DNA of 64,000 nt. It comes from Apostichopus japonicus. Its lineage: Eukaryota; Echinodermata; Holothuroidea; Aspidochirotida; Stichopodidae. The stretch lies in the NCBI RefSeq assembly GCF_037975245.1, contig NC_092566.1, forward strand, positions 5,146,001 through 5,210,000. Direction: 5' to 3'. Shown here one piece after another: positions 1-28,404 of this stretch. Both the position numbers and the translations under genes were made by a program. The notes under the pieces were generated by a model. That model saw only the letters and a program-made list of their open reading frames with translations, was not told the origin of the DNA and ran no database searches. The first letter of the stretch is position 1. Each line of letters begins with the position of its first letter.

Positions 1-952
1 AGAAATGTTAACTCTGATACTTAAGACAATTTGGAAAGTGTGGTTATAGTTGACAGTACAAAATAACTTGCACCTGAGAGCTTAGTTATGAGTGCAGAAT
101 GAAATGAAAAGATGGGCCTCTTAATTGCTTTAGAGCAGAATTTTGATTTGAATCTGAAGACAGTCCTGCCATGCCAAATAATTCCACCACAAAATACATC
201 TCACACACTCTTAAAGGTTCATTTTTCATTCCAAATCACGCAGTCGAAAAAATTGTCGAATTTGTGAGAATACATAATTAATACTACCTACACTAATTAA
301 GAAATCTGAAATCAGAATCAGAATGGAATCAATTCGCTTACTATTAGAGCAAATGTTTAGCAAACTACTGCGTAGCTTAACACTGACACAAATTGTTAAA
401 GATGAGGAATCTGCAATGCATATTGCTGAATCGGCAGTACATATAAGCAAAAAACGATGATGCCAGACACCATATTTTCCATTTATGTTGTTTCCGTAAC
501 TAGCTAGTTCTCATGGTTACCGTGCTGCTTTTCCATTTATACTATCCATATTTTAACTACTATTGGCTCTCGATCGAACTTCAGAAGAGGGAAATATGTG
601 ATGTCACGCAACATCAGGCATACAATATTTATTGGATTCCACTGAGACGACATAACATCTTTCAGTGGCAAAGACAAGTTTAACATTTTTTTGTTATTTA
701 CATGTTCTTAGGTCTTTAGAGGATATGTCAACAAACGAACTCCAGTAGTTTATATTGCAATGCTCTAGCTTTGATTGAAAGAGAACAAAAATCATTAGTT
801 CAATCCTTTGTCCATTAACTTAACTAAATAATGCAAACATGCAAACAAAAAAAACAAAAGAATGCTGTAAATTTATCACTCCTTATAATGATACAACTGA
901 CTTGTAGCCATGGTAACAGAAAGCAGAAAAAGGAAAAAGTGGTGTAACTAAC
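1..952. other. Partial intron 12 of the VFT receptor
   Basis: No continuation of VFT4 is readable on the minus strand, so this is taken as intron. Apart from a dispersed repeat at 397-472 nothing is recognised. Confidence 0.5.
397..472. repeat. Dispersed repeat, copy 1 of 2
   Basis: The segment starting AAAGATGAGGAATC and containing TATTGCTGAATCGGCAGTAC, then GATGCCAGA, recurs in the same orientation at 63931-63999. Family unknown. Confidence 0.6.
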
Positions 953-1465
953 CTGTACATATTGAAACTGTTCCGATAAATCTGATATATATCTTGTAAC
1001 CATTTGGTCCTCTGCCGCCACAATGCCTGCGATATGTCGCCAGGTGTTGTCGTCGCTGAATTCGCCCGTTCTCGACAAGTAAGATGAAAGGGACCTTATG
1101 CCTTGTCCAGTGCTGAGGCAGCTGTCAAATACAGTAGTTCCGAGCTGAACGCCTTTCAGAATCGTGTCGTCACTATTTATAGCCTTCACTGCATACAATA
1201 TGGCCTCCACATTGACGACCCCAGCTTCTCGTAGACTTCCGCATGTCTGCGATGAACGGGGAGTGGATTCGTGTACCCCCACGACGGCTGGAATCTGGAG
1301 CTCTCCGGGCAGACTGGCCACCAACCGCGCTGATTCCGGCAAAGGGAGACATTCGTCACATCTCCCGACGCAACTCGTTGACGACTCGGGCAACGTAATT
1401 TTTTCCCCACCGCGATACAAGTCGGGTGTCGTAACAGTGAGGATGCCATCTATCCACGTGCCGAT
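953..1465 (-). CDS. VFT receptor exon 12: linker 3 and start of VFT4
   Basis: A phase 0 exon of 171 codons. It begins IGTWIDGILTVTTPDLY, the VG-x-W-x-G-x-L strand closing VFT3. Next comes the cysteine stub TSCVGRCDEC, then GELQIPAVVGVHES, QTCGSLREAG, VNVEAILYAVKAINSD, TTVFDSC and HIAGIVAAEDQMV. Module end, linker and next module start lie in one uninterrupted frame, the strongest evidence for a multi-VFT protein. The donor is CAG|GTTAGT. The next exon must lie left of the window, since nothing matching VFT4 is found in 1-952. Confidence 0.87.
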
Positions 1466-4400
1466 CTAAAAATAAGAAAGACAAATATCAGTAGCTGAGT
1501 AGTACTATTCGATGTCCTGTATTGAGTTATCAAGTATCCATCGCTACCTGCTATATGTTCTTGACGAGTCGATGGTTAACCTTTTAGGACAACAATCGAT
1601 TACCATCAACTTTATTGTAGACGATCTGAAAGGATTTTTTGTTTGGCAGAATTTTATTCTTAACATGTCATAGTCCACATGAAGAAAGGAAACTTTCGAG
1701 TGGGGTAGTTCAATATTTTCTATAGTGATTCTGGCATTCATGATATTTAACTTTCAATAATCTGTGAAATGCTCCTTTAAAGGGAGCGACGGCTCGCACA
1801 AAGAAACGTCTCATGCCGGTAATCTGACCTAGATTCGAATGAGGTGTAACAGAAGTGTAAGACACCACCATCGATCCCAGAAAATACACACACAGCTTGC
1901 TACCGTCGGTAATTAGACACTAGTGTACAGTCAATACGTACAGCTACGGTCAATACCCACAACACAGTGTATATAGCAGTGATGGATATCTCAGGTCTAG
2001 ATAAAAGATAACAAGGTATCACGTTTCATTACTGTCTGCATTTTGTAGCAAGAAGAAGAAAACTTCACTAACGGAAAGTTAACTTTTTCAGAGTGCGGCA
2101 CGCGGTTTGCGGCGAGTCTTCAATGCCTTTAAAGGGTAAATTGATGATGCCATCAGCTCTTCAGTGAAGAATATTAATGCTGATCCATTGGTTCTATAAA
2201 TTCTTATAACTCAACCCCCAATGCTTTTTTTTTTAAACTACATATGAGCAACAGAGCACCTTTGGGTGTTTGTCCTAAACAAATTTTTTCTAATTCACTA
2301 TAAACATGTTATTGAAAGATGATAATATTTGCTTTTAAAATAGCGCTTTATACCAGCGATAGGTCTCAAAGCTCTTTACAGACGTTATATTATCCCTGGT
2401 CAATTATATCCTGTCCCAGAGACAATCCCTCCAGTCGGCAGCAGTTATATACTACGCCGCACAGGTACCCATTTAACCCCTGGGTGGAGAGAGGCAAGTG
2501 AGATAAAGCATCTTGCCCAAGGGCACAACATAATGAACTAGGCAGGAATCGAACCAGCAATCCTTGGCTCACGAGTCCGACGCCTTAGCCAATTGGCCAC
2601 CACGCTCTCGTTATTTGAGGTCATCGTAAATGTTTTGTTTTTCCTATTCAGTGTTGTATATGAAGAATTGACCTAACTGCAGTCTGTGTATTTCATGATA
2701 TTGAGGAGCCTTTAACATTTAAATGGTCCTTACTCAACTGTTCAGTGTGATACACAGCAGAACAACCTAAACTGATAACAGTTTTCTCAACAGTCTATTA
2801 ACCTATCAAAATGAACCCTCTGTGATTTATAACCTAAAAATTGTCATTGCATACATACACAGAAACACATCTATATTCAAAACTAAATTAAATATTTTGA
2901 ACTAATATCAAGATACTGATTTTACAAAGTTTCAGATATAAATCTCAGAAAGGGAATGAAACTTGGACATAACAACCTGGAAGAGCTTACCGTCGCATGT
3001 GCCAATCTTCCATCCTCCGTTGGACGGAAATTTAAAATGTCGTACTCTGCAGGGCCATCACCTTTGGAGTCAAACTGAAAGTTGACGCCATCTGCACCGG
3101 TGAAGGAGACCGTTCTGACGATGTCGTAAAAACTGTCCGGATTGTTTTTGAAGTTAGAGCAGAGATGGTTTGTAACACCAGGACACAGTTCTGTTATAGC
3201 ATTATGAAGACCAGTGGCTAAAGCCTTGACCGCATTGACCACATAGGTGACCTCTGGAGCCTGCATAAATTCTTCCGCCAGACTGGGAGAGTTGAAGGGG
3301 CAGCTAATATCATAGTTGTCCCGGCCGGAGATCACATTGCATTGGAAGTTATCGCTCCAAAAGTTCCTCCACCAGGGGTTCCTTTGGTTACTGTATGGAA
3401 GCAAGCTAGTATAGTAATCCCTGAACCCTGTGGTTTCACTCTCCTTAAACTGTATGGTGATAGCACCCAGTGAGGTCCTCTCTGCCCCCTGCGAAACGTA
3501 ATCCCTGGATCCCCACGTGTCTCCCCCGACCCACTGTATGTCGGTCACTTCCTTACGCTCTGCTGCTTGCAGGACGGACCTAGTGTGTAGGTCAGAGGTC
3601 AAGAGCAAAACCACCCTGGCATGCGGATTAGTCTGTAGACTGTCGATCAGACCGTCGATCGCGCTAGGGGACGACATCATCTTGCTGACGGCTAAAGTCA
3701 TCGCCACGCAGATGTTCGACGTTTCGGACGCTTTCCTAAACTGTTCGAGGATGTCGTTACCGTAGGAGTCATCGGAGTAAACAATGGATATGTAATTCCA
3801 CTGAAGTTCCATCAAAACGTTGACCATTGCAGCAGCTTGCTTTTCATCGGACGGCACCGTGCGGAGTACGTGAGGATATGCCTTGATGCTGCTGAATATG
3901 GTCGACGTGGCCCCATAGCTTATTGTCGCGAGGTCCAGGTTTACCAGAGTGTTGGATATCGCCTGGGTGGTGTCGCTCGTGGATCCCCCTATCATCCCAG
4001 CGATGCTTATCCGGTTTGGATTGTAACCCGGTCGATAATCGACCGTGCCAGAATAAAAATTGCCGACTTCTTTACCGACTCGCTTCTTGCTGGAACACGA
4101 GTCGAAACCTAATCCGGCGAGTTTTAGGTCCGGGAGGACGTCGACATCCCTGTTCACTTCATCGATTGCAAAGAGAAATGCCTCCAGCAGTTGCATGTTA
4201 TACAGTACCAGACGATCGGAGCACTCGATTTGTGTCGGTTCTGGTTCACTTATATCAAAGAAACCTGAAAATGGGAAATATAGAATGCTTAACTCTCTAT
4301 ACCCTCCATAAAGGGTTGTGAAATATTTTCAACAGATGTGTACAACGTAGAAGGACACATTTCCCATTGGTCGATAAATGAGAATTTTTGTGCATATTTT

Positions 4401-7400
4401 GTATACACTCAGTTTATGGAGGATCAATATTGCTCCTTATTAATCAAGCAAAGACCAAGAATTGTCAAATTCACCCTTGGGAGCATTCACTTGACAAGTC
4501 CAAAAAAAGACAGGTTTTCATAGTTACGAACCACAATGCTCACTTGCCTCCTTCACAATTGCACTACAATCTACCTCTCTCACAACAATTGGTTACATTT
4601 TTGGGGGCATTAAACCTCCTTTGACCCCTTTAAGGTTGTTGCCTTTCTTCCTTACAGAAAGTTAATATTGTTTAATACTCAACCTTTCTCAATGACTCCC
4701 AAATTTTAAGAAATTTTAAATTTTGATGACTTTAGATATGGGCTAAAAACCATCACAATTGGTTGCTTCAATACAAAGAGAAACAATATATGGATAAATG
4801 GGCCTCTCAGCATGGCATGAGTGAACTTGGGTCTGAATTATAAAGAAACCCTGAAACTATTTTTAACATGCACTTCCTTGCTTCCTGATAAGACAACAAT
4901 GAACAGAAACCAAATTTAATAGCTAGGTAATTAAGCACTGCCTAAACAAACACATAGTTGGACCCTAAATATCGTACCATGATACACAATGCAAGGCCCT
5001 ATCAGCTTATTATGATAAATGCTATATCAGGTGTATTGAAAGATACATGAAGGTCAACAAATCAATCGTGTTTGAAAATTTTCTTCGTGCATTAATCAAA
5101 GGTTGCAAGGACTTGATTGCATTAACTCCCAGGATTTGTTTGTTTTTGCGAAGCAACCTAAGTTGTTTTTTTTTAAAACAGTGACTCTCACCTCCAATCC
5201 AAATGTCTCCACTAGAACTACTGGTAGCCACAGAATCTCGTCCGTTCTCTTTGCATTCCAGACATTGGGTCTCGTTGCAGACTGAATAGATTCCAGTATT
5301 TCTGATGAAGCCATCGCTGGTATAGAAAACAGCTGCCTGGGTTTTGAGAAACTGGAACCTTGCGAACATTCCCACCTGTAAAATGTTTAAAAAAATATGG
5401 CAAAGATTGATACGCAACAATTGACACTAAAACAATAGCATCACGATTGAGACAGACAATGACAGGGATGTAAAAGGTCTTGCTGTAAAGAAGAAACCGG
5501 TTTGTCAAATATAATTTACGTTGGTTTAATATGACAGCTAGGTTCTTTTTGTTGATATTATATTATATTATATTGTATTATATTATATTATATTATATTA
5601 TATTGCGTTGTGTTATATTGTGCGGTATGGTATGGTTTGGTATGGTATGATATGGTATAGATGATACGATCTGGTATGGTATGATATGATATGATATAGA
5701 TGATATGATATGATATGGTATGATATGATATGATATGATATGATATGATATGATATGGTATGGTATGGTATGGTATGGTATGGTATGGTATGGTATGGTA
5801 TGGTATGGTATGGTATGGTATGGTATGGTATGGTATGGTATGGTATGGTATGGTATGGTATGGTATGGTATGATATGATATGATATGATATGATATGATA
5901 TGATATGATATGATATGATATGATATGATATGATATGATATGATATGATATGATATGATATGATATGATTGTAAAACAGAATTGGTTATGACCTAATTTA
6001 TATAATTTATATTTTGATGAATAAAATGTAGAGTTTTTTTATCAATATGAAATCAACTCTAGTAGTTGAATACATTTTATTGGTTTGATCAAAAATTATT
6101 ACAATGATTAATATCCAGGGAATTATTAAGTGTTCATATCTTGTGTAGCACTGTCAATGGCTCTGACTTCTTTTCTAGTATAGTTTCTGTGTACAATTGT
6201 ATTTATACATCTTTAATAAAACTTGTTCATTTTGTATGGCGTTTTGTGTTTCGATACTGAATAAATCATTCCTTGATACATTACTAGACTGCAATGTTTG
6301 CTAACTTCTCGCATATAAAAGAATAAGGAATATAAGAGGGCAAAGTACCTGCATGGAAGGTTCAAGTTTTAAAAAAACAGGGCTTTGCTGAATGGTCAGT
6401 AAAATTATCTTAAAAATTGCCACTGTTTTTTATTGTTTTGTCTTGTAGCATTTGGGAAAAGATAAGACAATATAAGAGTACTACAGACCAAATTGGTCAC
6501 AACCTTTTTTTTGTTCCCCTGACATACCTCTACAGGTCCATTCTGTTGAATGTTGAAGATATGAAATGGGACTGTGCCCTCACCAGAAAAGCTAATATCA
6601 ATTGAAAGCCCATCTTCATTTTTGCTTTGGAATGTTTTGGATGCGACTTCTGAAAACACCTGGTCCCCTGACAAAATATCCATGGCCTCACAGACTCCTA
6701 CATACGACGATCCACATGTTTCGGAGTGGATACGATGAAGGGCTTCTGCCAGAGTATACACAGCATCGATAACATAGGCTAAGGTTTCATCATTGACATC
6801 TGTGTTAGGATCAAGTGCTTCGTTCCCTGTCAAATATGACAACATGTAGAAGAAACGAACATTATTAAGTGATATTTCCTTTAAGAAAACCAAAAGTTAA
6901 GGCCAACTTACTTTTACACATTCTCTTACACAGGCTCTCTAGTGGATAAGCAATTTGCTAACAGTTTTATTTTATTAATTTTGAAGAAAACCAAGGTTAG
7001 TTTAAAACGATTGATTTGTGTTTTTGTTTGTTTTAATCATTGAGGTTGTAATGACGATGATGAGGACAAACACAACAGGGGCAGAGGCAACAAGAACAAT
7101 ATTCCATATATATAGCGATATTTGACAACTTCAAAAAAGGAAGGATCCAAAGTATAACTTCCAAAAACATCCTAAAAGGCCTTAATAAAAAGAAAATGTC
7201 CTCAATTTTGGAGAAATCATCTCACAACTGCCGACAAATTTCTAGCAGACAGTGGCAGTGAATTCCAGTACTTGGCCAAATTTACTGGAAAAAAATAGAG
7301 ACCACTCAAAATTTCTGTACGGACCATGAACATTGATGATAATCTCTAGAATGTCATCATAATTCCTAAAATGTGGCAACATTGCATAATTGTCCAAATA

Positions 7401-10400
7401 TAATCCCCTCCACTCCCCCCTCCCCCAGCACCCACCCTCCATTCTCACTACTTAGCTTCAGATAAATACAGCTTTCCGTCTGTCAAGATATGCTTCCGGG
7501 AATAAAGAAATATAAGGAATGATGTACTATACGATAGTAGAATTGATGAAATGAAAATTACTTCCAAAGAAAAAAAAACCTAGCAATCATCATTGCTATG
7601 GTCATGTAGATAAATGTGAGAAGCACTTGCACCTACTATAAAATTTGATGAGTAAAATAACCCTTAAACTGAGCTTCTTTGTATATATCACAGAATGCAA
7701 TGTCACCTTAGGTCCAGTTTTAACCCCCCGATAAGTTCTTATTTTGCTATCCTACTTGAGCATTTGAATTTAAAAATTGCGAGAAAAGTATTCACGTAGT
7801 TCCTACAAACTCTTGACAAAGACAGTGGAAAAACCTTTCTCGACAGTGATTTGACAATGTACTCCAAATTTTAAGTACAGACAAATTTTTTGGCAGTAAC
7901 AATTATCAACAGTCCTCCATCCAATCTGATCTTTCGTTGAGAGATTGACTTTTCGAGCTTTAACATCTGGTAACATTTCTAATGTTTTCTTTGCTGACTA
8001 TGGCAATCAGTTCTGACATGCAGAAAAAAATTAAGTTGATCTCTCCTTTTTAAGTCAAGAATTATTTCTCAGACGAGAGACACAACTTGCTAAAATGTCT
8101 CACCTGAACAGGGAGTGGTAAATTCCGACGGTTCCCCAGGCAGATTGCACGAAAACTTCTGCATCCAAAATTTCCTGAACCAAGGATTCTGGGAGTTTGT
8201 TGCGGGGTCAAGGGCAGCCACGTATCTCTGGAAGGTATCGTACTGTCTTGGGCTAGTTTTCACAGCTAAAGTACCTATGATACGTACAACAACAAAAACG
8301 GGAAAATTATTGACATTTTTACGACGGGTATATCAAATTGGATTTTGACTTAAACGGTCGTCAAAATATTACAGAATAAGTCTTCCTCAAGTCCCAAATC
8401 TACAAATTTCCATAGGTTAACTGTACGGAAATTGTCATTGATCCAGAGACAAGATGAGAAATTACTCCAACTGGGCAAAATTGTATCGTCATTCTTGAAA
8501 GGTTCCGCAAAGCAGTATGAAGAATGTCATCTTAGAAGCAAGAAATTTAGTCAACTTAGTCTTAAGTAAAGAAACAAGGTTGAGCTATGAAACATAACTA
8601 GTGAATATAGTGTGTCGATGTCCTTATAGTAGCTCACCTCTAGCAACATCTTCATAGAGGGAGGTGAAATCATCGTCCAAGACCCAACTATCGTCCGCAA
8701 TCAGGAAATACTGGCCGGTCAAGTTGCGCATCTTTATCTGGCCCATGAACCTCTGAATTTCTTCCGGTCCGGCAGAGATGAAGATTGCTTTAGCTTCTGG
8801 CTTTGACGAAAGATCGTCAAAGATGGCATCCCAACCGCTGTCTTCTGATGGTATTTGAAGGCTTTGGGCGACGCAGACATCATACTGAAGAGAAGAAGAA
8901 TCGTTAGTAAGAAAATCAGAAATAAACTGGGAGGGGAATTTCAAAGCAAAAACCTAGCTTTGTCCCCTGTCAAGTTTACAACTTGAAATGATGCCATCTT
9001 GGTGTGAAATTACAAAACCCAAACCCACATGGAAATCTGTCAACCTTGAACTTTGGGATTTGAGTCGACAAAACGGGAAAAGGTCCAGTTTTCAGTACAG
9101 GTTTTGGTTTGTAAACTTCATTAGTATTGGCCCCAAGTTGTAGCAATGATAAAAACTGCTAGAATATTTTAAATGTACTTTCCTAGTGGCTGCAAACTAG
9201 TCCCATTTATTATTATTGGAATAGACAATTGGATATCTCAGAGAGGATAACTACATTTAGTGGTGAAGGAAAATTCTTGTTTAAACTTGAGCATGGTTGA
9301 CCATTATCTCACATTCTAACCTACTGGGGGGGGGGGGTGGGGGGCAATAATGATGACCTTTCAAGAAGACCAACTGATATCAGAGGCATCAATCAAAGTG
9401 GCTGGACAATCTAGGTTTGCACACACACACAGCACCATTATGTAGGCAATGCAGTAGTCAAAAAAAGGTTTACAGCCCGGACTCTTTCAACGTATAAATT
9501 TAAGACTGTCAATCTAGTTTACCGAGTGAGTAATATCAGCATTACTCCACTTTTTTTCATTTTTGTTGCATTTCAGTTTAATATTCTGTCTGAAAATAAA
9601 TCATTGAATGCCCAGGTACAAACTAACACAGTATTTCTGGATCTTTACTTATAATAAATATAGCTTACAGGATCAGAACAAACTTATAGAAGATGAAGCA
9701 AGAAAAAAAAGATATTCTATATATTATGATACACTTATGTTATACCACAACACCACAGCAACAGAATCAAAGTTATATTTACCTGTTCAAAGTATGATCG
9801 GATGACGGTGTTCAAGGGATAATTTTCAGGAGAAAGCAGTGTACTGACATAAAGGAAGTTCCACTCTGCTAAGGTTGCTGCAACTGGAAAAAAGGTGCTG
9901 ATGTAGGTAGGTACCACCCTCGCAAAGTTTGGCACGGACGAGCTGCTGCTGAGAAGGTGTGAATCCGCCTCGTAACTAACCACTGTAACACCGTAGGTCT
10001 TAACCACTGAGACCACCGCGGCGGTCTCCTCGTTGCCTCCGGGCCCGACTATACCGTACAGATGCTGCTTCTGGTTGCCATCGGCGACCCGAGATCCAGA
10101 CCCGCTCTGACCAAACTCAAACTCTGAGACCAATTTCAGTGCCTGATGGCTTGCTCTTTGGGAATCCCCGCAAGTATTGAGACCCTCGAGCCCTAATGTG
10201 ACTGTTGGCAGGATATTTGGATCTTGGTTGATTTGATTAATAGCGTACAACATAGCCTCAAGACGAAGCACGCCCTCGAATGACAGAGCACCGCAGGTCA
10301 TAGCATCTGCATCCCACTCATTGACAGAGAAGAAGCCAGCGAGTAACACATCGCCCTCAATTTGTACCTGTAGATCACGTAGAGAGTGGAAGACAAAGAC

Positions 10401-13400
10401 ACAGATACAAATTTACAAATTCTAACGAGACCATATCAAATTTGAGGATAATTCGTCACAACCCAAACCCGTTTGTTTATAGTCCAGCAAGTTCTAGTCT
10501 GTGTAGTTATTGTGTTATTTTGTGTAGTAGTACTAATACAGCTTAAAAAATTAAAAAAAAAGTTACTTGGGAGAGTAATTAATAGAATGCATATATATGG
10601 GATCTCATCTAAACTGATTAGTTTTATTGTAAATTAAGGCATCGCAACACTAAAAACTGAATCATAATTTTCCAAGTCAGATTAAAAACACTTAGACTAT
10701 CATCTCAGCATTATTCCTCTCACAGGTTGTTGTTTCTACTTTGTGGGCTCTGAGGGGTAATCAATAATAATAATGAACAGTTCTTATATAGCGCAACTTA
10801 CAATAAAGTCTCGCCCGCTGTACAAAAGAAAGTGAAAGATATGTACACAATATACAATAAGAGTAAACATAACAATTATAACAATGAAAACAGGTGTGTC
10901 TTCAAAACAGTTTTGAAGATCCCCCACAGACACGACCACCCAATGTTTGTGGTAGTTCATGATCAAAGACCCTCCCATCCACAAATCATGCTGCCAGTAT
11001 ATCTGATATCATGAAGAAGCGTGAGCTTCTCATCCTTATATCAAACAATGGTATTATTAGACCATTTATGAATATATCCCTAGACATGATTCGAACTTCT
11101 GTCAGCTGTGTACTCTTAAAGTTTGTTCACTTCCCTTCTCACCCAGCATGACTGTGACCTGTAGCATACAAAGTCAATTGCTACACTGGTCAGTGTGACT
11201 TTTGCTTCAGCTTTTCCAGTTTATATAACGTTTTCTATCAGTCAAACCTCTGAACTAATCTCTGATCTAAATCTCCCAACTAACCGTGAGTTCATCATCA
11301 TCTTCCTCCAAGGCTAGACAGACTGGGTCCATGCATGGATTTCCGCAAGACGACGTAATGGAATCCAGAACGTTGTCTGCAACGAATGAAGTTTGACCAC
11401 TAAGAGATTGCCCCAGCTGTCATTGAAGAGAGAGAAAATTTGTAGATTCAAAAGAGTATTTTTCAAGATGGTAAATTCACACACACACACATTGTCGGCA
11501 AAGACATACAATCCACATTTGTGATCCAGTAACTTGAAAATTGTTGACACTGCTTTATTTTCTCTCTCTTTTTATTGTCTCATATATTAGATGTATTTGT
11601 ATTTTTAAAAGGGGTGTGTTCATGTTTGTAAGCCACTTCAAGCTTCTTGGTGGGCACTTCTCAGTCTCTTTCTCTTTAAAATTATCAGGTTCTGTGTATT
11701 ATTATTATGTTGTTTATTTCAAAAGCGACTGAAATAGAGTTCTATGAGTGAATGAAATGAATTATAATTTTCTTTGGATTTGGAATATCGCAGCCAGTTA
11801 AGGGTGTTACAGTCGCCATCCCTAACATTGTTAGTTGAGCAATGTGCTAGTTTCTGCCCTATCAGCGTTCCACTCTCTCCTAAACATAGATGAAATTTGT
11901 TGTAAGGGTTACATTTATGATTTCTTTTGTAATCTTTATATTTGAACTTATAAATATAAACTAATATAAACTAATGTAAATTTAAAAACAAACACTTTGA
12001 AGAATAGTTTTTCTCACATACACAGTTTCAAACTGCTGATTGAATCCTCATCATTAACTGGAAATAATTTGTTATTGTCAGAATAGTTTTAGCAATTTGT
12101 TGAGTCACTTTCAGTCATTTTCATTAAATTTGAAACTCCTCGATGAATGTAACTAAAATTTGGACATTAAGAATAATAAAGAAATATTACTCTTGCAAAC
12201 GTCTTTCTAGAGTTAACTTTGTCTCTAAGTTTGTAAGTTATCTCTACGATTTGAGTGCTTTGAGCAGCTTTGCTGAGTATGAACTATATAAATATTACTT
12301 TTAATATTATTACATTTGTACCAAATTCAGATTAAGCCTAATCCTTACCTTGGTTTGAGCCCCATTCGTTGTCTCAATCCTCCAGATGAAGTAATCCTCG
12401 GATGCCGGGCTACCCATTCCATTAAAATTGCTCGATTGTGAGCCAGTGCTGAAACTGGTTTGTCTAATTTCATCTTGAATTTCCTTTGGCGTAGTTGTCA
12501 TGAAACTTTCACAAGGACCCGAAGAACCTAAGCACTTTGTGACTTGTAAATTTCTCAGAGCTTTCACGACAGTGTTGACTGATTCTATGACCGGCAAGAC
12601 GTACGGGTTTCTCCTGTAATTTTGTTGGTGTTGTAGCTCTTGGCCAGGGCCGCACGAAACTCCTAACAGACATTGATACGACTGTTCCCAAAATGATGTG
12701 AACCACAAATTAGCATCAGTATTGACATTATCTGGTGAGAGACCTTTGAAGTAGTCATCAAATGTGCTCACTATCGTAAGATCCAATGTGGAAGGAGATA
12801 CTGCCATTAGATTTAGGGAGAACGAGTTTGGTTTTATTAAATCAGGGAGCAATCTATGACCAACGATGAAATGGAACCTCGATGATTCTGAAATTCGTTG
12901 GCCAAATTCTGATAGAAATGACATCGAGGACAGGAAGGCGACGACTATGGTAGGACTCTGTTGCTGTTGTTCGAAATCAGACACAGCTTGGGAAGCATCT
13001 GAGCTGATGACCTTAGTATAAGAGATACATATCTTAGCATTTCTTGCTTCATCCTGGAAAGCTTTTGCCTCCGCTTGGTCTTCAGCTGTGTCAGAGTAAA
13101 CCAGTGAGATGTACTGCCATCCCTGAGAGACTAAAAGTCCAACGATAGCCTATGGAGAAAGGAATCAGTCTAGAAATGGTAATCATGCATTATAACAAAC
13201 AAGTACTTGTATAAAGATTCCATAGTTCCATCATTTATTAATCAAAGCAGAGAATATGCATATTCATCATGCTCTTAATTATCATGCCTTGTGGAGACGT
13301 CTTTCACTCGGTGGTCATTGCTCCATAATTATAGTTCGTTCCCGAGGAATGAGAGCGACAGGTACATTTCATTTCAGCTCTGTTGGATTAGATTAGTATT

Positions 13401-15389
13401 AGAAAACAAGGCACATCTGCACTGTAATTATTTTTCACCCTAACAGTTACTATAAACATACTGTATGTAGACAATTGTCATCTAGAATGAGACATATCTT
13501 TTGAACTAGCTCAATAGCAGTGTACAATTAAACATGTTCACATATTTACATAAGCGTCATGAGTAGATCGAACTTTATAAGTCAATTTTGACAATTAACA
13601 CTGTTTACTAATTTTAACTTGTTTTTTCCATCAAATTTTCTTGCCAATTAGAGGGGGGGGGGGGGGAACTGGGAGCAAAATACCATGTCTTGAAGGCAGA
13701 GGTTGAGGAAAATGTGAACACTTTTAACATGTTATGGATTTCGAGTTGGAACACTGACCTTTGCCTCTGCGCTGTCCGGTGGAACTACCCGTGATAAGAA
13801 GTCATAACCAGAAGACGGAGTGAGACTTGGAATGGTGGCAGCATAACTAATGACTGGAGACTTAGCATCAGAAAGAAGGGATGCAACTGCAGGTCCCCTT
13901 TCACCTCTAAGATCTGCGATCATCGCTATAGAAGCAGACAGTATAATATTGTTAGCTTAAAGAGGCATTACTTTACTTGCCTTTAGGAAACAAAAAGTAC
14001 AACTTAAGACTTTAACAAAGAGTCAAAGAAAAACAAAACAATATTTATAGCACTTTTGAAAAAAGCCTGAACTAGGTAGATCTTGTGGGAATCAGGAAAA
14101 AAAATCAATCTATTAGAGATAAATACAATATACAAAAAGGAAAAGAGTGAGGAAAAGTAGACCATACCACACCATGTATGAAGGATGCAAGATGGGTGGG
14201 GGAGGGGTTTTGTGAAGAGCAAGATAATAGCCAACATTGTATTTTAGGCTATTCATGCCAATTCATTAAAGGTGAATTGACAAAATAATTAGGACAAAGT
14301 AAAAGAAAAAGTAAACAAATCCTTAACTATATGAGTGCTGTTTTGTTCAACCAAGTCCTGCAGATTTGCATATACTGACATACCTGCTTTAAGCTGACTT
14401 CCACAGTTATCTCCAACATTTTGTTCATATGAGACCTTTCTGTCGCCAAGGAAACTGATGCTGCGATCTGTAGCAACAGTAGCAGAGTAACAAGAGTCCC
14501 ATGCTTCCAGCCCTATCAAAATAAAATTGAAGAATGATGAAAGGGACAATCCAGTATACTGCTCAGACAACAAAAAACAACTTATTTTGGACCCCCCCCC
14601 TCCCCATCCCCAACCATGGTGGAGCTGCAAGTTAGTGATATTCTCTAGGCTATGTCTGGGCCATGAACATTTATTTGCTGTCTCTAGTAGTCAGTGGGTG
14701 GGATAAGGTTGAGAGCCTAGGCTTGATGACATAATTTTACAAGTGAGACTCCATATTTTCTACGTTCTATAATCCCACAGCTAGCAATGTTCACATCCAC
14801 AGCCTGTAAGGAAAGTTATGTCCTTGACCATATATATCACATGTGAGATAAGTGCAGCTGGCTAACTGAATGGATGCGGTTTTATCCACCAAATTCCTGA
14901 TACACTCTGATCTTTACGCCATATCAGGGAGCAAATGGGAGCTCCGTCCCTGGTTATATTTTGTCATCTGAAAAGTTATGGAAGAACCTAACTAACCAGG
15001 GAGTTGTCATTTGCTCTAACTTCTAAGTCTAACTTAGGTTAGGCTAGGCGACCTCTTGACATTCTGAATGATAGCGTTCACCAACTTCACAGTACTAATA
15101 TAATGGACTACGAGCTACAGTAGGCTAACTTCTTACCAATAGTAACACCTGGAACGGAATTGTTCTCGTTCGCTATGTTGACCGCATGAATGGCTGCTTC
15201 GACCAGCTGGATAGCGGAATAGTCGGGAATAGTTTGGCTGCAAATGTCTCCGTGAAAATGTGGTGATAAATACGAGAACATAAATCCAAGGGTTACGTCG
15301 CCTGCTATTACACCGTAATCTCTGTATGGACATGTCTGGCACTTAACCCCCACTATCACAAATGTAAGGATGAGTAAACGCGACATCAT
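953..15389 (-). CDS. Tandem Venus-flytrap receptor, class C GPCR-like ectodomain (5' part of gene, 12 exons)
   Basis: Coding exons on the minus strand: 15389-15137, 14512-14384, 13925-13759, 13149-12349, 11416-11285, 10367-9783, 8884-8638, 8274-8104, 6826-6528, 5375-5192, 4264-2991 and 1465-953. All introns are GT-AG and phases agree at every joint, giving 1585 codons without a stop. Residues 1-17 are a signal peptide. Four VFT modules follow at about 20-450, 490-928, 980-1414 and 1455-1585 (cut by the window edge). Each opens with a GD/GE strand motif, then a cysteine and an LEA-like helix (VEAAIHA, LEAMLYA, LEAFLFA, VEAILYA), then an x-DSC/NTC motif. The linkers carry C-x3-C-x4-C, C-x4-C-x2-C and C-x3-C-x2-C. 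The closest known family is the metabotropic glutamate receptors (ANF_receptor fold), which carry one VFT per chain. A role in extracellular small-molecule or amino-acid sensing is inferred. Whether a 7TM, kinase or other membrane domain follows cannot be seen. Confidence 0.85.
2330..2612 (-). mobile_element. tRNA-derived SINE, full copy (family A)
   Basis: Read on the minus strand from about 2612, the element starts with a tRNA-like head. Its A-box-like sequence is TGGCCAATTGGCTAAGG and its B box is GGTTCGATTCC. The body includes CTTGGGCAAGATGCTTTATC and the CCACCCAGGGGTTAAATGGG segment. It ends in a 3' tail with a TATAAAGCGCTATTTTAAAA motif. It lies in intron 11 of the VFT receptor. Related pieces occur at 10767 and 31880. 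Confidence 0.75.
2991..4264 (-). CDS. VFT receptor exon 11: almost the whole of VFT3
   Basis: A single exon of about 425 codons, phase 1 in and phase 0 out. It carries LLEAFLFAIDEVNRD, LGFDSC, IAGMIGGSTSDTTQA, ATISYGATSTIFSS, VLRTVPSD, WNYISIVYSDDSYGND, IQWVGGDTWGSRDYV, NPWWRNFWSDNFQCN and YVVNAVKALATGLHNAI. The serine/threonine loop, the SYGATS loop and the GGDTW acid are all kept, so this is the module most like a functional amino-acid-binding VFT. VFT1 and VFT2 are each split over four exons, so VFT3 has either lost introns or never had them. Confidence 0.9.
5192..5375 (-). CDS. VFT receptor exon 10: linker 2 and first strand of VFT3
   Basis: Phase 0 in and phase 1 out. It starts VGMFARFQFLKTQAAVF, the VG-x-W-like strand that ends a class C VFT. 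A cysteine motif SVCNETQCLECKENG follows, and then GDIWIGG, the first strand of the next VFT, completed by FFDIS at the start of exon 11. This one exon therefore spans the VFT2-VFT3 junction. Confidence 0.82.
5543..5968. repeat. Pentanucleotide microsatellite blocks (TATTA, TATGA, TATGG)
   Basis: A TATTA-type stretch passes into mixed TATGG/TATGA and then to long pure blocks of TATGG (about 5755-5870) and TATGA (about 5870-5967). It lies in intron 9 of the VFT receptor. The sharp change of unit inside one array suggests expansion of separate point-mutated seeds. Confidence 0.95.
6528..6826 (-). CDS. VFT receptor exon 9 (C-terminal part of VFT2)
   Basis: Phase 1 in and phase 0 out. It contains ETLAYVIDAVYTLAEALHRI, matching the helix YVVDAVYAMAHALH of mGluRs. 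It then has CGSSYVGVC, a strand with ISFSGEGTVPFHIFNIQQ, and ends at GPVE before the conserved phase 0 intron. Confidence 0.83.
8104..8274 (-). CDS. VFT receptor exon 8 (VFT2)
   Basis: Phase 1 at both ends. It reads TLAVKTSPRQYDTFQRYVAA, then NPWFRKFWMQKFSCNLPG and TTPCSG. The N-P-W-F-x-x-F-W-x-x-x-F-x-C motif is diagnostic of class C receptor VFTs. The donor is G|GTGAGA. Confidence 0.83.
8638..8884 (-). CDS. VFT receptor exon 7: lobe 2 of VFT2
   Basis: Phase 0 in and phase 1 out. It starts YDVCVAQSLQIP (strand with cysteine) and carries AKAIFISAGPEEIQRFMGQI, NLTGQYFLIADDSWVLDDD and LYEDVARG. The DDSW turn keeps an aspartate at the position of the mGluR GSDGW ligand-contact acid. One N-linked glycosylation sequon (NLT) is visible. 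Confidence 0.83.
9783..10367 (-). CDS. VFT receptor exon 6: lobe 1 of VFT2
   Basis: A phase 0 exon of 195 codons after a CTACAG acceptor. It starts VQIEGDVLLAGFFSVNEWD, equivalent to the IDGDIVLGGLFPVH start of mGluRs. It continues with MTCG, the helix LEAMLYAINQINQD, LEGLNTC, IVGPGGNEETAAVV, VTVVSYEAD and FARVVPTYIS. There is no start codon context or signal peptide here, which argues against a separate gene. Confidence 0.85.
10767..10925. repeat. SINE family A tail-like fragment
   Basis: The sequence has a TAATAATAAT run, TATATAGCGCAACTTACAAT, then AAGTCTCGCCCGCTGTACA. This parallels the tail of the copy at 2330 (TAGCGCTTTATACC, then AGGTCTCAAAGCTCTTTACA). The tRNA head is not seen. It lies in intron 5 of the VFT receptor, between linker 1 and VFT2. 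Confidence 0.45.
11285..11416 (-). CDS. VFT receptor exon 5: linker 1
   Basis: A 44-codon exon, phase 0 at both ends. It has LGQSLSGQTSFVADNVLD, then TSSCGNPCMDPVC (C-x3-C-x4-C), then an acidic tail EEDDDELT. It sits where the cysteine-rich domain begins in mGluRs but is much shorter, and joins in phase to the next VFT. It is short, and supported mainly by splice-site and phase agreement and by analogy with linkers 2 and 3. Confidence 0.7.
12349..13149 (-). CDS. VFT receptor exon 4 (rest of VFT1)
   Basis: A phase 0 exon of 267 codons. It starts AIVGLLVSQGWQYISLVYSD, the mGluR-like helix and strand at the start of lobe 2. It includes a poly-Gln run (DFEQQQQS), the segment FHFIVGHRLLPDLI where mGluRs have a GSDGW-type turn, and a W-x-S-F-W-E-Q-S-Y-Q-C motif. 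It ends before the phase 0 donor AAG|GTAAGG. The acidic residue of the GSDGW turn is missing, suggesting altered ligand recognition. Confidence 0.85.
13759..13925 (-). CDS. VFT receptor exon 3 (VFT1 ligand-pocket segment)
   Basis: Phase 1 in and phase 0 out. It contains PVISYAATIPSLTPSSGYDF and FLSRVVPPDSAEAK, which closely resemble the mGluR segments ISYASTAPDLSD and FFSRVVPPDS. The segment corresponding to the GASGSSVS loop is shortened (MIADLRGERGPAVASLLSDA), so the serine that contacts the ligand alpha-amino/carboxyl group in mGluRs is not evident. Confidence 0.85.
14384..14512 (-). CDS. VFT receptor exon 2 (VFT1)
   Basis: A 129-nt exon, phase 1 in and phase 1 out. It reads LEAWDSCYSATVATDRSISF and then a cysteine-containing segment. 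The W-DSC motif matches the x-x-DSC of class C receptor VFTs. The acceptor is TTTTGATAG and the donor G|GTATGT. Confidence 0.8.
15137..15389 (-). CDS. VFT receptor exon 1: signal peptide and start of VFT1
   Basis: The ATG at 15389 opens a hydrophobic leader (MMSRLLILTFVIVGVKC), likely cleaved near residue 17. The next residues give the first VFT strand (GDVTLGFMF), a cysteine (DIC) and the first helix (LVEAAIHAVNIANEN). A second in-frame ATG follows directly; the first is chosen as the more upstream. The donor is G|GTAAGA, leaving phase 1. A TATA box lies 42 bp upstream of the ATG, implying a very short leader. Confidence 0.85.
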
Positions 15390-15438: not shown

Positions 15439-15578
15439 GCCACTGTGAAACGGTGGCAAGTTGTGCCTTATGCAACACACTGATATGTTACGTGAACTAA
15501 TACAATTGTTATGCGAACTCCGATCTCCTTTACCTGCCTCTTGATTCCAAGTTACAGAAACCCAAAAGAAACCACATT

Positions 15579-15859
<281 letters not shown>

Positions 15860-25297: not shown

Positions 25298-25822
25298 TAT
25301 ACAACACCATCAAATTTGGATATAATTGGATGTAAAATGCACTCATGCAACAGATTGTTTTGAACAGACAGGTTTCTCTGCTCTCTTACCATTGAAAAAA
25401 GTGCTATCAAAAAAGTATAACACATGGTTCTATTTCATAGAGTGCAATAGAGCGGATTTTGCATGCAATCGACAAGCAATTGACCAATCAAATGGCCGGA
25501 ATTAGGTGTTGTATAAAATTGAGATATTAAATGGTCTAGTTTTATAAAGTTTGTTTGATTCTGATTCAGAAAATTGGTCCACTCTCCCATTTCAATTTCA
25601 GACTGCCAAGTTATTGTATGTGTTGCAAGGTTTTTGAAAAATGTTGCAAATGTAATCCCAAGGAAAAGGAAAGAAAAAGAAAAGGCTCAGTTATTTTGTC
25701 CTTACTTGAGGGTTAATATGCATGTATTCTTGAAAACTTCTATAACATCTCTCAGAGTGACTTTACCCATAAGTAATGTTACCTCAAAAGTAAAACGTTT
25801 CAAAATGTTTTTGTCTCCACAG

Positions 25823-28404
25823 AAGTTTTACAACTTTGCTACAGGACAGGTGCTGGTAAATTGTGGCTAAAAATGAGTATCCCAGCTGCTGTCTTTTATG
25901 GGGTCTGCTCCGGCTCCCTAGCTTTCATTAACAAACTAGCTGTGACCACGTTTGACTTCAGATATCCAGCATTCATACTGTTTGCTCAAATGGTCTTTAC
26001 AGCAAGTATCCTGAAGATACTGAAAGTTGCGGGAAAGATTAACTTTGCCGGTATCTCTCTTGAAAGCAGTTGGAACTGTGCCATACCTTCCTTGTTTTAT
26101 GCCTTCCATGCCATGTTTGCCTTGACCGCACTCGGCGATCTCAACATCCCGATGTACAATGTGATTAAACGTTGTGTGCCACTCGTGAATATCTTCCTGG
26201 CATCCTGTCTCTTGAAGGAAGGGCGGCCATCTTGGAAGATAATATCAACCGTGGTGGTCATTACTTCCGGTTGCATAATAGCAGGTAAAAAGGAACTAAA
26301 TTAGGTTTCAGATGTTGAAGTTTTGTTCTAACTATTGAGTACGGTAGACAGGAGAACTTGCATAGAAACTAAACAAAATTGTACATTTTTATTGTTTACC
26401 AGACTTGATATGATTGGGTGAAAAGATAATATAAGATACCTGGTAGAGTTATACTTTAGAGAATTAACCACATTTGCAGTTATTTACTTTTGCCAAAAAA
26501 CCACACTCTCTTCCAACTAATCAATATTATTAGTCCTGTAGGTTAAAACAGTTGATTACATCACCTCTAGAAGCAATCAAATTTGTTTAGATGATTATTA
26601 AGAAAAATATTTTATGGCAAAAAATAAAATTTGCCTTGAACTGATTCTGGGCATTCAAAAACTGAAATACATAAAACTGTTCAAATTCAAAAAATGGAGT
26701 TCCTATAATCTGTTTATCTCATGAATCATGAAAAATGAGAACAGTTCACTAAGCTAATTTTGCCAAAAACATTTCGTTAATTAAGAAATTAATGATCAAA
26801 AGTATGAACACTTTATCGTCTGAAGACAGATCTCATTCATGTATTCTGAAGTGCCGTGACTCTTGATTTAAACAAACTAATTAGAGAACGCACTGGAATG
26901 CATATTCAGTACCAACGAAGCTCTCCTTTCTCAAAGAACAGCTGATCGCCAATGGGACTAGCCTACTAGTGACAACAGTATACTGTGTAAAACCTAGCCT
27001 ATGGTAACACATAGTACTACAGTTGGTATCACAGACCTTCAGACATCTTCACAATCTCTCTCTGACTAGGCCCAATTGCATACCTTTACTAGAACTAGGT
27101 CTCTGACTGGGCTACTAATATTATATGAAGACCTAGGCTACTACTGGTAATAGTAGTCCTGCTAACAGTTAGCTCAAGTTCAAACTGAGTTCGATGATGC
27201 TGATCGAAGGAACACTGACTCACCATCTTTGTTGTACATTCAATTCAGCAGTAATCTGGCTTTCAATCTCCTATGATATGAAAATAGTTGTCCAGTGATA
27301 AAACCTATAGAAGAGAAGGAATTAAGTCGAGAAGAAAACAACTATCTAACAGGATTATTATATATTGTATATGTACAGTATGCAATGCATTATCATGTTG
27401 ATCCTACCATGGAGCTAATTAAATAAATATAGGTCATGAGGCAGTTATTTTTACGACGCTAAACAACCACGAATGTGGGAGAAGCTCGCAAGGGTTTATG
27501 GATTACAATTTTCATGTCGGTGGCTTCCAATTCAACATTTTAGCTCAAATGTAGAATCTAAAACTAAAACTTTGGTAGTATGAATGTGTTACACTGATGA
27601 GTGATGATGCCATCACTGTTCAGTGTTGCATATTCATGACTAAACTCACATCTAGGCATGGTGTAGCTCTTATAATGAGAACCCGTTTTTTCAAAAATGT
27701 TTTCAAACTTGTTTACAGTTTTCAAGCTGTTCCGTTACTTTTAACAACTATCACTGTCACGTTCAGTCATTAAATGACATTTTTCGTTTATGAACAACAC
27801 CGGTGGTACATGGAAAAACAATTCCTTGTATCTTTAATATTCATTTATATCAATCTGTTATTATTAATTTTTTTCATTATTAATTTTTTTTGACATTTCA
27901 GGATTTGGTGATTTGGATTTCAGTCTGGCTGCATATCTATGTGGTTTGGTTAGTATCTTCTCGCAAGGTCTGTATTTGACTTATGTACAAAAACTCGGCA
28001 TCGAGAAGCAGCTGACAGCTCTGGAGCTCCTCTACGTTAACAGTATCAACTGCATCCCTCTCTTCCTGTTGTACATCCTCCTCTCCTGGGAGTTCGTCGA
28101 TGCGGTCAACTTCTTACGGGACTGTACATTTGAGTTCATCCTGGTATTTTTGCTAGTCATATCCATGGGCTGTGTCTTAAACTACTCTCTGTTCCTGTGT
28201 ACGACCTTGAACTCTGCCTTGACCACCAGTATCGTCGGCGTCATTAAGAGCGTGGTGACAACGGTCATAGGTATGTTCACCTTTGGCGGTATACAACCCA
28301 CCGTTCTCATCATCACGGGAATTTCTATAAACACCTTGGGTGGGATGGGGTATACCTACCTCAAGTATAAGGAGAAACAAGAAGCAACTGATTTACCAAA
28401 GTGA
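25823..28404 (+). CDS. SLC35D3-like nucleotide-sugar transporter (two coding exons)
   Basis: The CDS is 25873-26284 joined to 27902-28404, 304 residues; the G|GT donor and TTTCAG acceptor keep phase 1. A CCACAG acceptor at 25822 indicates a spliced 5' UTR. The start is ATG 25873 (MSIPAAVFYGVCSGSLAFIN), the first ATG in the exon. The protein is almost all hydrophobic segments, about ten, as expected for the SLC35/DMT fold. Motifs shared with SLC35D3 as I recall that protein are LNIPMYNVIKRCVPLV, LLKEGRPSWK, GCIIAGFGDL, LYLTYVQK, CTTLNSALTTSIVGVIKSVV and INTLGGMGYTYLKY. It would act in Golgi/ER or related vesicle membranes exchanging a nucleotide sugar. The substrate cannot be told. It lacks the long cytoplasmic C-terminal tail of the vertebrate protein. 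Confidence 0.85.
25873..26284 (+). CDS. SLC35D3-like transporter, coding exon 1
   Basis: Residues 1-137, covering about four to five membrane segments. It includes the PMYNVIKRCVPLV helix, which aligns with PMYVVFKRCLPLV in vertebrate SLC35D3. It ends at GCIIAG before the donor GTAAAA. Confidence 0.85.
26285..27901. other. Intron of the SLC35D3-like gene
   Basis: 1617 bp, GT-AG, ending in a T-rich tract and TTTCAG. No repeat family or hidden exon is recognised. Confidence 0.8.
27902..28404 (+). CDS. SLC35D3-like transporter, coding exon 2
   Basis: Residues 138-304 and a TGA stop. It carries the second half of the transporter fold, with the SALTTSIVGVIKSVVTTVIG signature shared with SLC35D1-D3. 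It ends in a short charged tail KYKEKQEATDLPK. Confidence 0.87.

Follow-up and report, generated by a model that had tools for sequence, protein, structure and literature searches.

A pair of echinoderm genes encoding candidate class C receptors with four tandem Venus-flytrap domains

The 64,000-nucleotide stretch of the Apostichopus japonicus genome analyzed here (hereafter the window; C6:5146001-5210000 in a 671.6 Mb assembly of 35 contigs, where a genome position is 5146000 plus the window position) carries on its minus strand the first 12 exons of a gene, gene A, whose product joins four tandem Venus-flytrap (VFT) domains to one seven-transmembrane (7TM) domain. These parts lie in a single frame, all of them are homologous to domains of class C receptors, and the layout is conserved in a second gene, gene B, on the same contig; that the pair encodes class C receptors with four VFTs each is, in our judgment, close to certain. 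Class C receptors are known with one VFT per chain and act as dimers, and the passage of the signal from two VFTs to two 7TMs is a central question about them. Genes A and B probably represent G-protein-coupled receptors (GPCRs) derived from metabotropic glutamate receptors (mGluRs), with the third VFT as amino-acid sensor, which arose by VFT duplication within one gene followed by duplication of the gene.

An earlier note on the window had proposed that 12 minus-strand exons join in phase into one gene with at least four tandem VFTs. The exon ends, the AG/GT signals at every internal edge and the phases all agree with this proposal, and the joined exons run to 4755 nucleotides, or 1585 codons, free of stops. 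To the left of position 1, where the note had expected the remainder of the receptor, exons 13 and 14 finish VFT4, and exons 15 and 16 encode a 7tm_3 domain (PF00003; 55.9 bits, cut-off 33.5), bringing the full model to 16 exons and at least 2195 stop-free codons with four VFTs and one 7TM. When Pfam was run on five overlapping pieces of gene A, with the VFT4 piece taking in the exons left of the window, PF01094 matched each of the four modules over nearly its full profile (VFT1 101.0, VFT2 139.7, VFT3 203.0 and VFT4 82.6 bits; cut-off 25.4). The only other Pfam match in gene A at E ≤0.01 was a sub-threshold one to the periplasmic-binding family PF13458, on VFT2 and VFT3. Of the C-terminal parts that had been sought, the 7TM is present, whereas the NCD3G cysteine-rich domain found no match at E 0.01 in gene A. 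A Venus kinase receptor or guanylyl cyclase end was rejected because the gene terminates in 7tm_3. The 7TM shows seven hydrophobic groups in gene A and six to eight in gene B, depending on how overlapping windows are grouped. In NCBIfam, the VFT3 exon matched just a bacterial amino-acid binding protein (25.8 bits against a cut-off of 477) and the 7TM exon matched nothing.

Two of the three junctions between modules lie within single exons. Exon 10 (window 5192..5375, minus strand) passes in one frame from the last strand of VFT2 through linker 2-3, with its three cysteines (CNETQCLEC), to the start of VFT3 (...SGDIWIGG); exon 12 (953..1465, minus strand) likewise combines the final strand of VFT3, the three-cysteine linker 3-4 (CVGRCDEC) and the first lobe of VFT4. 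The claim that the fusion is independent of exon joining thus stands for VFT2-VFT3 and VFT3-VFT4, but VFT1 and VFT2 are brought together only by the splicing of exons 5 and 6.

Genome searches with PF01094 and PF00003 located gene B at C6:7262774-7285365, on the plus strand, 2.1 Mb from gene A and opposite to it in orientation. It comprises 16 exons in the same order as those of gene A, with 2325 stop-free codons, and 764 of the 2138 residues aligned between the two proteins are identical. One of its exons alone scores 94 bits against 7tm_3, its VFTs having likewise been scored as single exons. All 15 introns are equal in phase between the genes; 14 of them occupy matching columns in the pairwise alignment, and the remaining one lies within three columns and coincides in the alignment of modules. 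Chance is ruled out as the source of a layout that recurs with the same 16 exons in another gene. The two loci also bear on the concern that the assembly, or exon joining carried too far, merged separate paralogous receptor genes. Room for such an artefact is left by the splicing-dependent VFT1-VFT2 junction, by the use of one assembly, and by models with hand-chosen exon edges drawn from genomic sequence alone; set against these are the identical exon order at the second locus, the two single-exon fusions, the module-by-module pairing in the tree (see below) and a 7tm_3 search giving at least two places on C6, those two being the ends of genes A and B. We accordingly rejected the artefact, whose probability we put as very low; the continuous frame, the fusions within exons, the one 7TM per locus and the second locus together uphold the reading as one gene with four tandem VFTs.

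Across the gene pair, codon positions 1, 2 and 3 differ at rates of 0.51, 0.40 and 0.67; where the residue is unchanged, differences occur at 170 of 243 fourfold sites. In this codon-position pattern the mark of purifying selection on the protein is apparent. An excess of change at the third position is seen in each of the four VFT stretches and the 7TM, and also in linkers 1-2 and 3-4 (23 and 20 aligned positions). The 7TM itself is identical at 92 of 267 residues, with rates of 0.53, 0.35 and 0.68 at the three codon positions and differences at 16 of 19 fourfold sites. The codon-position pattern, together with frames that stay free of stops over 2195 and 2325 codons, led us to reject a pseudogene.

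Within gene A, all of whose exons are on the minus strand, exon 1 (15137..15389) supplies the start codon, a hydrophobic leader that reads as a signal peptide and the start of VFT1. The signal peptide that had been claimed earlier is a reading of how hydrophobic the N-terminus is (its best 11-residue mean is 3.15; the rest of the ectodomain reaches 2.15 at most), and a 19-residue scan at a threshold of 1.6 left it unflagged. Lobe 1 of VFT1 continues through exons 2 (14384..14512) and 3 (13759..13925), both aligned with gene B, in the former case with its exon 2, and exon 4 (12349..13149) holds the remainder of the module covered by the PF01094 match. Exon 5 (11285..11416) encodes the final strand of VFT1 and the three-cysteine linker 1-2 (CGNPCMDPVC, against CEEVCLDPQC in exon 5 of gene B). 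VFT2 is spread over exon 6 (9783..10367; lobe 1), exon 7 (8638..8884), exon 8 (8104..8274) and exon 9 (6528..6826; its end), all placed by PF01094, and nearly all of VFT3 lies in exon 11 (2991..4264). Intron 12 takes up positions 1..952 of the window, and the gene continues to the left of it with exon 13 (C6:5144800-5144959; VFT4), which was selected visually from the open frames because it resembles a VFT and was then fitted by phase, and exon 14 (C6:5143600-5144303; remainder of VFT4). Exon 15 (C6:5141020-5141749) encodes the last strand of VFT4, a short stalk with one cysteine and the first part of the 7TM, and exon 16 (C6:5140349-5140585), which has a weaker acceptor (AACAAG), the last helices and the start of the C-terminal tail. 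The 3' end is provisional: the model finishes in phase 1, or exon 16 continues to a nearby stop, and no homologous C-terminal exon 17 was seen when the two loci were compared exon by exon, the only comparison in which it was looked for. Long simple repeats of ATATC-type five-base units occupy the intron between exons 9 and 10 (window about 5590-5960), and an ATG/GAT run lies upstream of exon 1 (about 15560-15850). A dispersed repeat, with 47 to 90% identity at the protein level, occurs in an intron of gene A (window 1797-2130), past its 3' end (about -5800 to -6130) and upstream of gene B (C6:7254829-7255183).

As for the origin of the modules, identity between genes A and B is 31% for VFT1, 35% for VFT2, 51% for VFT3 and 25% for VFT4, and that between different modules 17 to 26%. 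A tree of eleven rows pairs A1 with B1, A2 with B2 and A4 with B4 (100/99 each) and A3 with B3 (100/100). As module n pairs with module n, the four distinct modules predate the duplication that gave rise to genes A and B. A phase-0 intron at alignment column 472, just before the last strand, is common to the eight modules and is missing from an ordinary mGluR gene on contig C20, where the frame stays open from the VFT end into a full cysteine-rich domain. The shared intron and its absence from the C20 gene favor duplication within one gene; a generic mGluR intron was considered as its source and was not seen in the C20 gene, the single gene compared. In both genes, VFT3 is uninterrupted by introns from one end to the other. 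Three cysteines follow the column-472 point in all six linkers, and the first cysteine pair of linker 1-2 (SSCGNPC) resembles the start of the cysteine-rich domain in the C20 mGluR (SKCSLPC), on which ground the linkers may be a remnant of that domain. Together, these features favor tandem duplication inside one gene as the simplest account of the four modules: a unit made up of a VFT and the start of a cysteine-rich linker would have been duplicated repeatedly within one gene, and the whole gene would then have been duplicated to yield A and B.

The closest relatives among solved structures were sought by searches of the PDB, using two-row profiles of A and B for VFT1, VFT2 and VFT4, and single gene A sequences for VFT3 and the 7TM. 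The best matches were in each case mGluRs: mGluR3 for VFT1 (E 4.4e-50), VFT4 (E 5.6e-39) and the 7TM (E 7.2e-07), mGluR7 for VFT2 (E 1.4e-71) and mGluR2 for VFT3 (E 4.5e-67). The best 60 of 91, 90, 101 and 90 matches for VFT1 to VFT4 consisted of mGluR entries and, next after them, CaSR entries, and GABA-B entries were absent both from these and from the 31 matches of the 7TM. The gene A stalk gave one chance match to a solved structure (E 0.86). With mGluR2, mGluR3 and mGluR7, the proteins share the VFT fold as judged by sequence, the 7tm_3 domain, the presumed alpha-amino-acid residues of VFT3 (see below) and the start of linker 1-2; they differ in having four VFTs instead of one, linkers with three cysteines, replaced glutamate side-chain contacts (as we presume them to be) and, in gene A, no match to the nine-cysteine Pfam domain.

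Among other known systems, GABA-B receptors are formed by two chains, each with one VFT, and the bacterial sensor kinases BvgS and EvgS carry two VFTs. Venus kinase receptors differ from gene A, which ends in a 7TM, in having one VFT, a single membrane helix and a tyrosine kinase. There are likenesses to all three: GABA-B receptors belong to class C and have no cysteine-rich domain between VFT and 7TM (PMC12716839), although the sequence here is nearer to mGluR; Venus kinase receptors have a VFT ectodomain and occur in invertebrates including echinoderms (PMC3703292); and BvgS and EvgS bear tandem VFTs in one chain (PMC4352136), an analogy only, as these are bacterial histidine kinases. The metazoan layouts given in the excerpted part of PMC12716839 are ANF, ANF with NCD3G, and Cache with EGF, and gene A with its four VFTs departs from the description there of one VFT per class C chain; the mGluRs of a starfish have an ANF domain with NCD3G, according to an excerpt of PMC6267866. 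The note's statement that no receptor of this layout had been described is in line with open-licence PubMed Central, where, among the matches listed and in the excerpts they offer, no animal receptor was found in which a chain carries two or more VFTs and the tandem-VFT matches were bacterial sensor proteins. In particular, excerpts of PMC4302439, PMC6307864, PMC6267866, PMC7042368, PMC2670285 and PMC3703292 contain no multi-VFT receptor. Such proteins may nonetheless lie unnoticed, as predictions, in sequence databases. In the present genome, 18 further 7tm_3 loci preceded by VFT exons of the same strand were read by eye, and none was evidently another four-VFT gene (no large part of the profile being matched twice), a weak negative since several of these loci show a single VFT exon, the crowded clusters on C8 were left aside and the locus lists are lower bounds.

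The residues of the ligand pocket single out VFT3. We take S145, T168, D188, Y216 and D295 of mGluR2 to hold the alpha-amino acid and R57, R61 and K377 to hold the side chain of glutamate, both numbering and roles being assumed. All five residues of the former set are kept in VFT3 of both genes, as against two in A1, two in A2, one each in A4 and B1, and none in B2 and B4. The equivalents of R57, R61 and K377 are Y, L and E in A3 and E, L and Q in B3. With the alpha-part residues kept and the side-chain contacts replaced, the expected ligand of VFT3 is an alpha-amino acid, though not glutamate; whether VFT3 is the amino-acid sensor is a prediction that we consider evenly balanced. The residue test favors one such site over four equal ones. 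The competing view, that each VFT binds a ligand of its own and the receptor works as a coincidence or multi-ligand sensor, gains from the fact that all modules are open in both genes, each of them changing most at codon position 3, and from the general knowledge of VFT receptors that pockets may switch ligand rather than die. We nevertheless regard it as rather unlikely: six of the eight modules keep at most two of the five presumed amino-acid residues, and VFT4 is only 26% identical between the genes. On the reading with VFT3 as the sensor, this module would close on an alpha-amino acid that is not glutamate, and the other three would have drifted from amino-acid binding to become dimerization or relay modules or to accept other ligands.

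Between the last strand of VFT4 and the first transmembrane helix there are 48 residues in A and 169 in B, with one cysteine in each. Given these stalks, coupling to the membrane must differ from that in mGluRs. Cysteines at what we take to be the start of transmembrane helix 3 (TM3) and the second outer loop align with those of mGluR3 and between A and B. We judge signaling through G proteins likely, with a path in which the four VFTs would stand outside the cell and closure of VFT3 would be relayed through VFT4 and a stalk lacking a full cysteine-rich domain to the 7TM, and thence to the G protein.

A number of points weigh against the account of an mGluR-derived GPCR with its sensor in VFT3. 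Both gene models were drawn from the genomic DNA only, and the exon edges of gene B were drawn with the exons and phases of gene A in view, so that the equal phases are partly built in; for exon 5 of gene B, a single candidate passed a filter that took in phase, splice sites and cysteines, and for exon 10 the same strict filter left none and a looser one seven overlapping candidates, from which we picked the one with a full GTAAGT donor and the closest likeness to A. The residue matches come from one alignment of nine sequences including mGluR2. In the tree, the four modules do not form one clade, since a class C gene on C21 joins A1 and B1, albeit weakly (59/53), and the tree program warned that the join of A4 and B4, both of them long branches, is possibly false, although it agrees with their position in the gene and with the introns. 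With such weak deeper nodes (59/53) and long branches, the order of the modules relative to mGluR is likewise loosely placed. Linker 2-3 lacks signs of constraint (0.65, 0.65 and 0.46 at the three codon positions; 26 aligned), and VFT4, the module next to the membrane, is the least conserved at about 25-26% identity. The cysteine aligned with C234, which presumably ties the VFT to the cysteine-rich domain in mGluRs, is kept in seven of the eight modules and lost in A4. The long stalk of gene B (exon 15, C6:7283071-7283550), made of tandem S/T/Q/D-rich repeats (67% S, T, Q, A or D) with no counterpart in A, fits poorly with rigid coupling of the mGluR type. Lastly, at the position of PKxY, which we take to be the class C motif of helix 7, the sequence reads PIRI in A and PIIV in B; the motif not being kept, coupling to G proteins is unproven.

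Some of the same features would suit a protein that does not signal, such as one whose large ectodomain is released or serves for scavenging or as an adhesion stalk, the 7TM being degenerate: the S/T/Q-rich stalk of gene B is long, the 7tm_3 score in A is modest (55.9 bits) and the presumed PKxY is gone. The 7TM is constrained in sequence, and both genes retain the cysteines of TM3 and of the second outer loop, for which reasons we consider a non-signaling protein improbable.

Another possibility is a concatenated receptor, in which neighboring VFTs pair within the chain in the manner of the two subunits of a class C dimer; VFT3 would be the binding half and VFT4 the silent one, as if GABA-B1 and GABA-B2 had been fused. 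It accords with the even number of modules, with the position of the likely binder VFT3 adjoining the likely non-binder VFT4 beside the 7TM, and with the general knowledge that class C VFTs act in pairs; moreover, no module has a residue aligned with C121, which we take to be the inter-chain cysteine of mGluRs. Conversely, one 7TM per chain means that a 7TM dimer still needs two chains, and VFT1 of both A and B carries, in that loop region though not in register, a cysteine that could link chains. On balance this arrangement seems unlikely. Its fullest version, in which the four VFTs form two intramolecular pairs, VFT3 is the sole amino-acid binder and VFT4 its silent partner, and one chain replaces an obligatory heterodimer, is a doubtful proposal; if true, activation would be readable from one chain. 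Under the reading that we prefer, with VFT3 as the sensor of an mGluR-derived GPCR, four covalently ordered VFTs in two genes would show that VFT number can grow by duplication within a gene and stay under selection. Such a natural concatemer would allow the role of each VFT to be tested through mutation of one chain, and a candidate type of chemosensory receptor would be added to echinoderms.

VFT exons also occur in a different arrangement on contig C4. At C4:1574900-1679342 (loci L020-L030) there are eleven tandem exons, each open and each with a leader-like start (by eye) followed by VFT lobe 1, and downstream of them seemingly one exon set for VFT lobe 2 (22.1 bits, below the cut-off), a kinase homology domain and guanylyl cyclase (28.4 and 58.7 bits). 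A phase-1 GTAAG donor is found at the exon end in seven of the eleven, an earlier and phase-0 donor only in three, and none in one. The array looks like a set of protocadherin-type alternative first exons of a receptor guanylyl cyclase; among the matches listed in open-licence PubMed Central, we found no comparable array. We considered it as a many-VFT gene, which it probably is not, each exon seeming to have its own leader. A second minus-strand cluster of VFT exons (C4:14195373-14326450 and 14048989-14053417), with guanylyl cyclase exons downstream, is perhaps a similar array.

Elsewhere in the window, two plus-strand frames at 25777-28404 belong to a neighboring gene: the first matches the triose-phosphate transporter family PF03151 (35.4 bits, cut-off 30), and the second reads as the rest of a PF03151-type gene, without a Pfam match of its own. 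On the mitochondrial contig, C35, Pfam scores are higher under genetic code table 9 than under table 5 for COX1 (504.2 against 473.4 bits, with 482.7 under table 4), cytochrome b (278.8 against 265.5) and nad1 (361.6 against 345.4); table 9 being the echinoderm code, this fits an echinoderm. Starfish have the nad1/nad2 block inverted; here, nad1 and nad2 share the strand of cox1. Beyond this contig, five COX1 fragments lie at C29:14745-31219, either a nuclear copy or a second mitochondrial piece.

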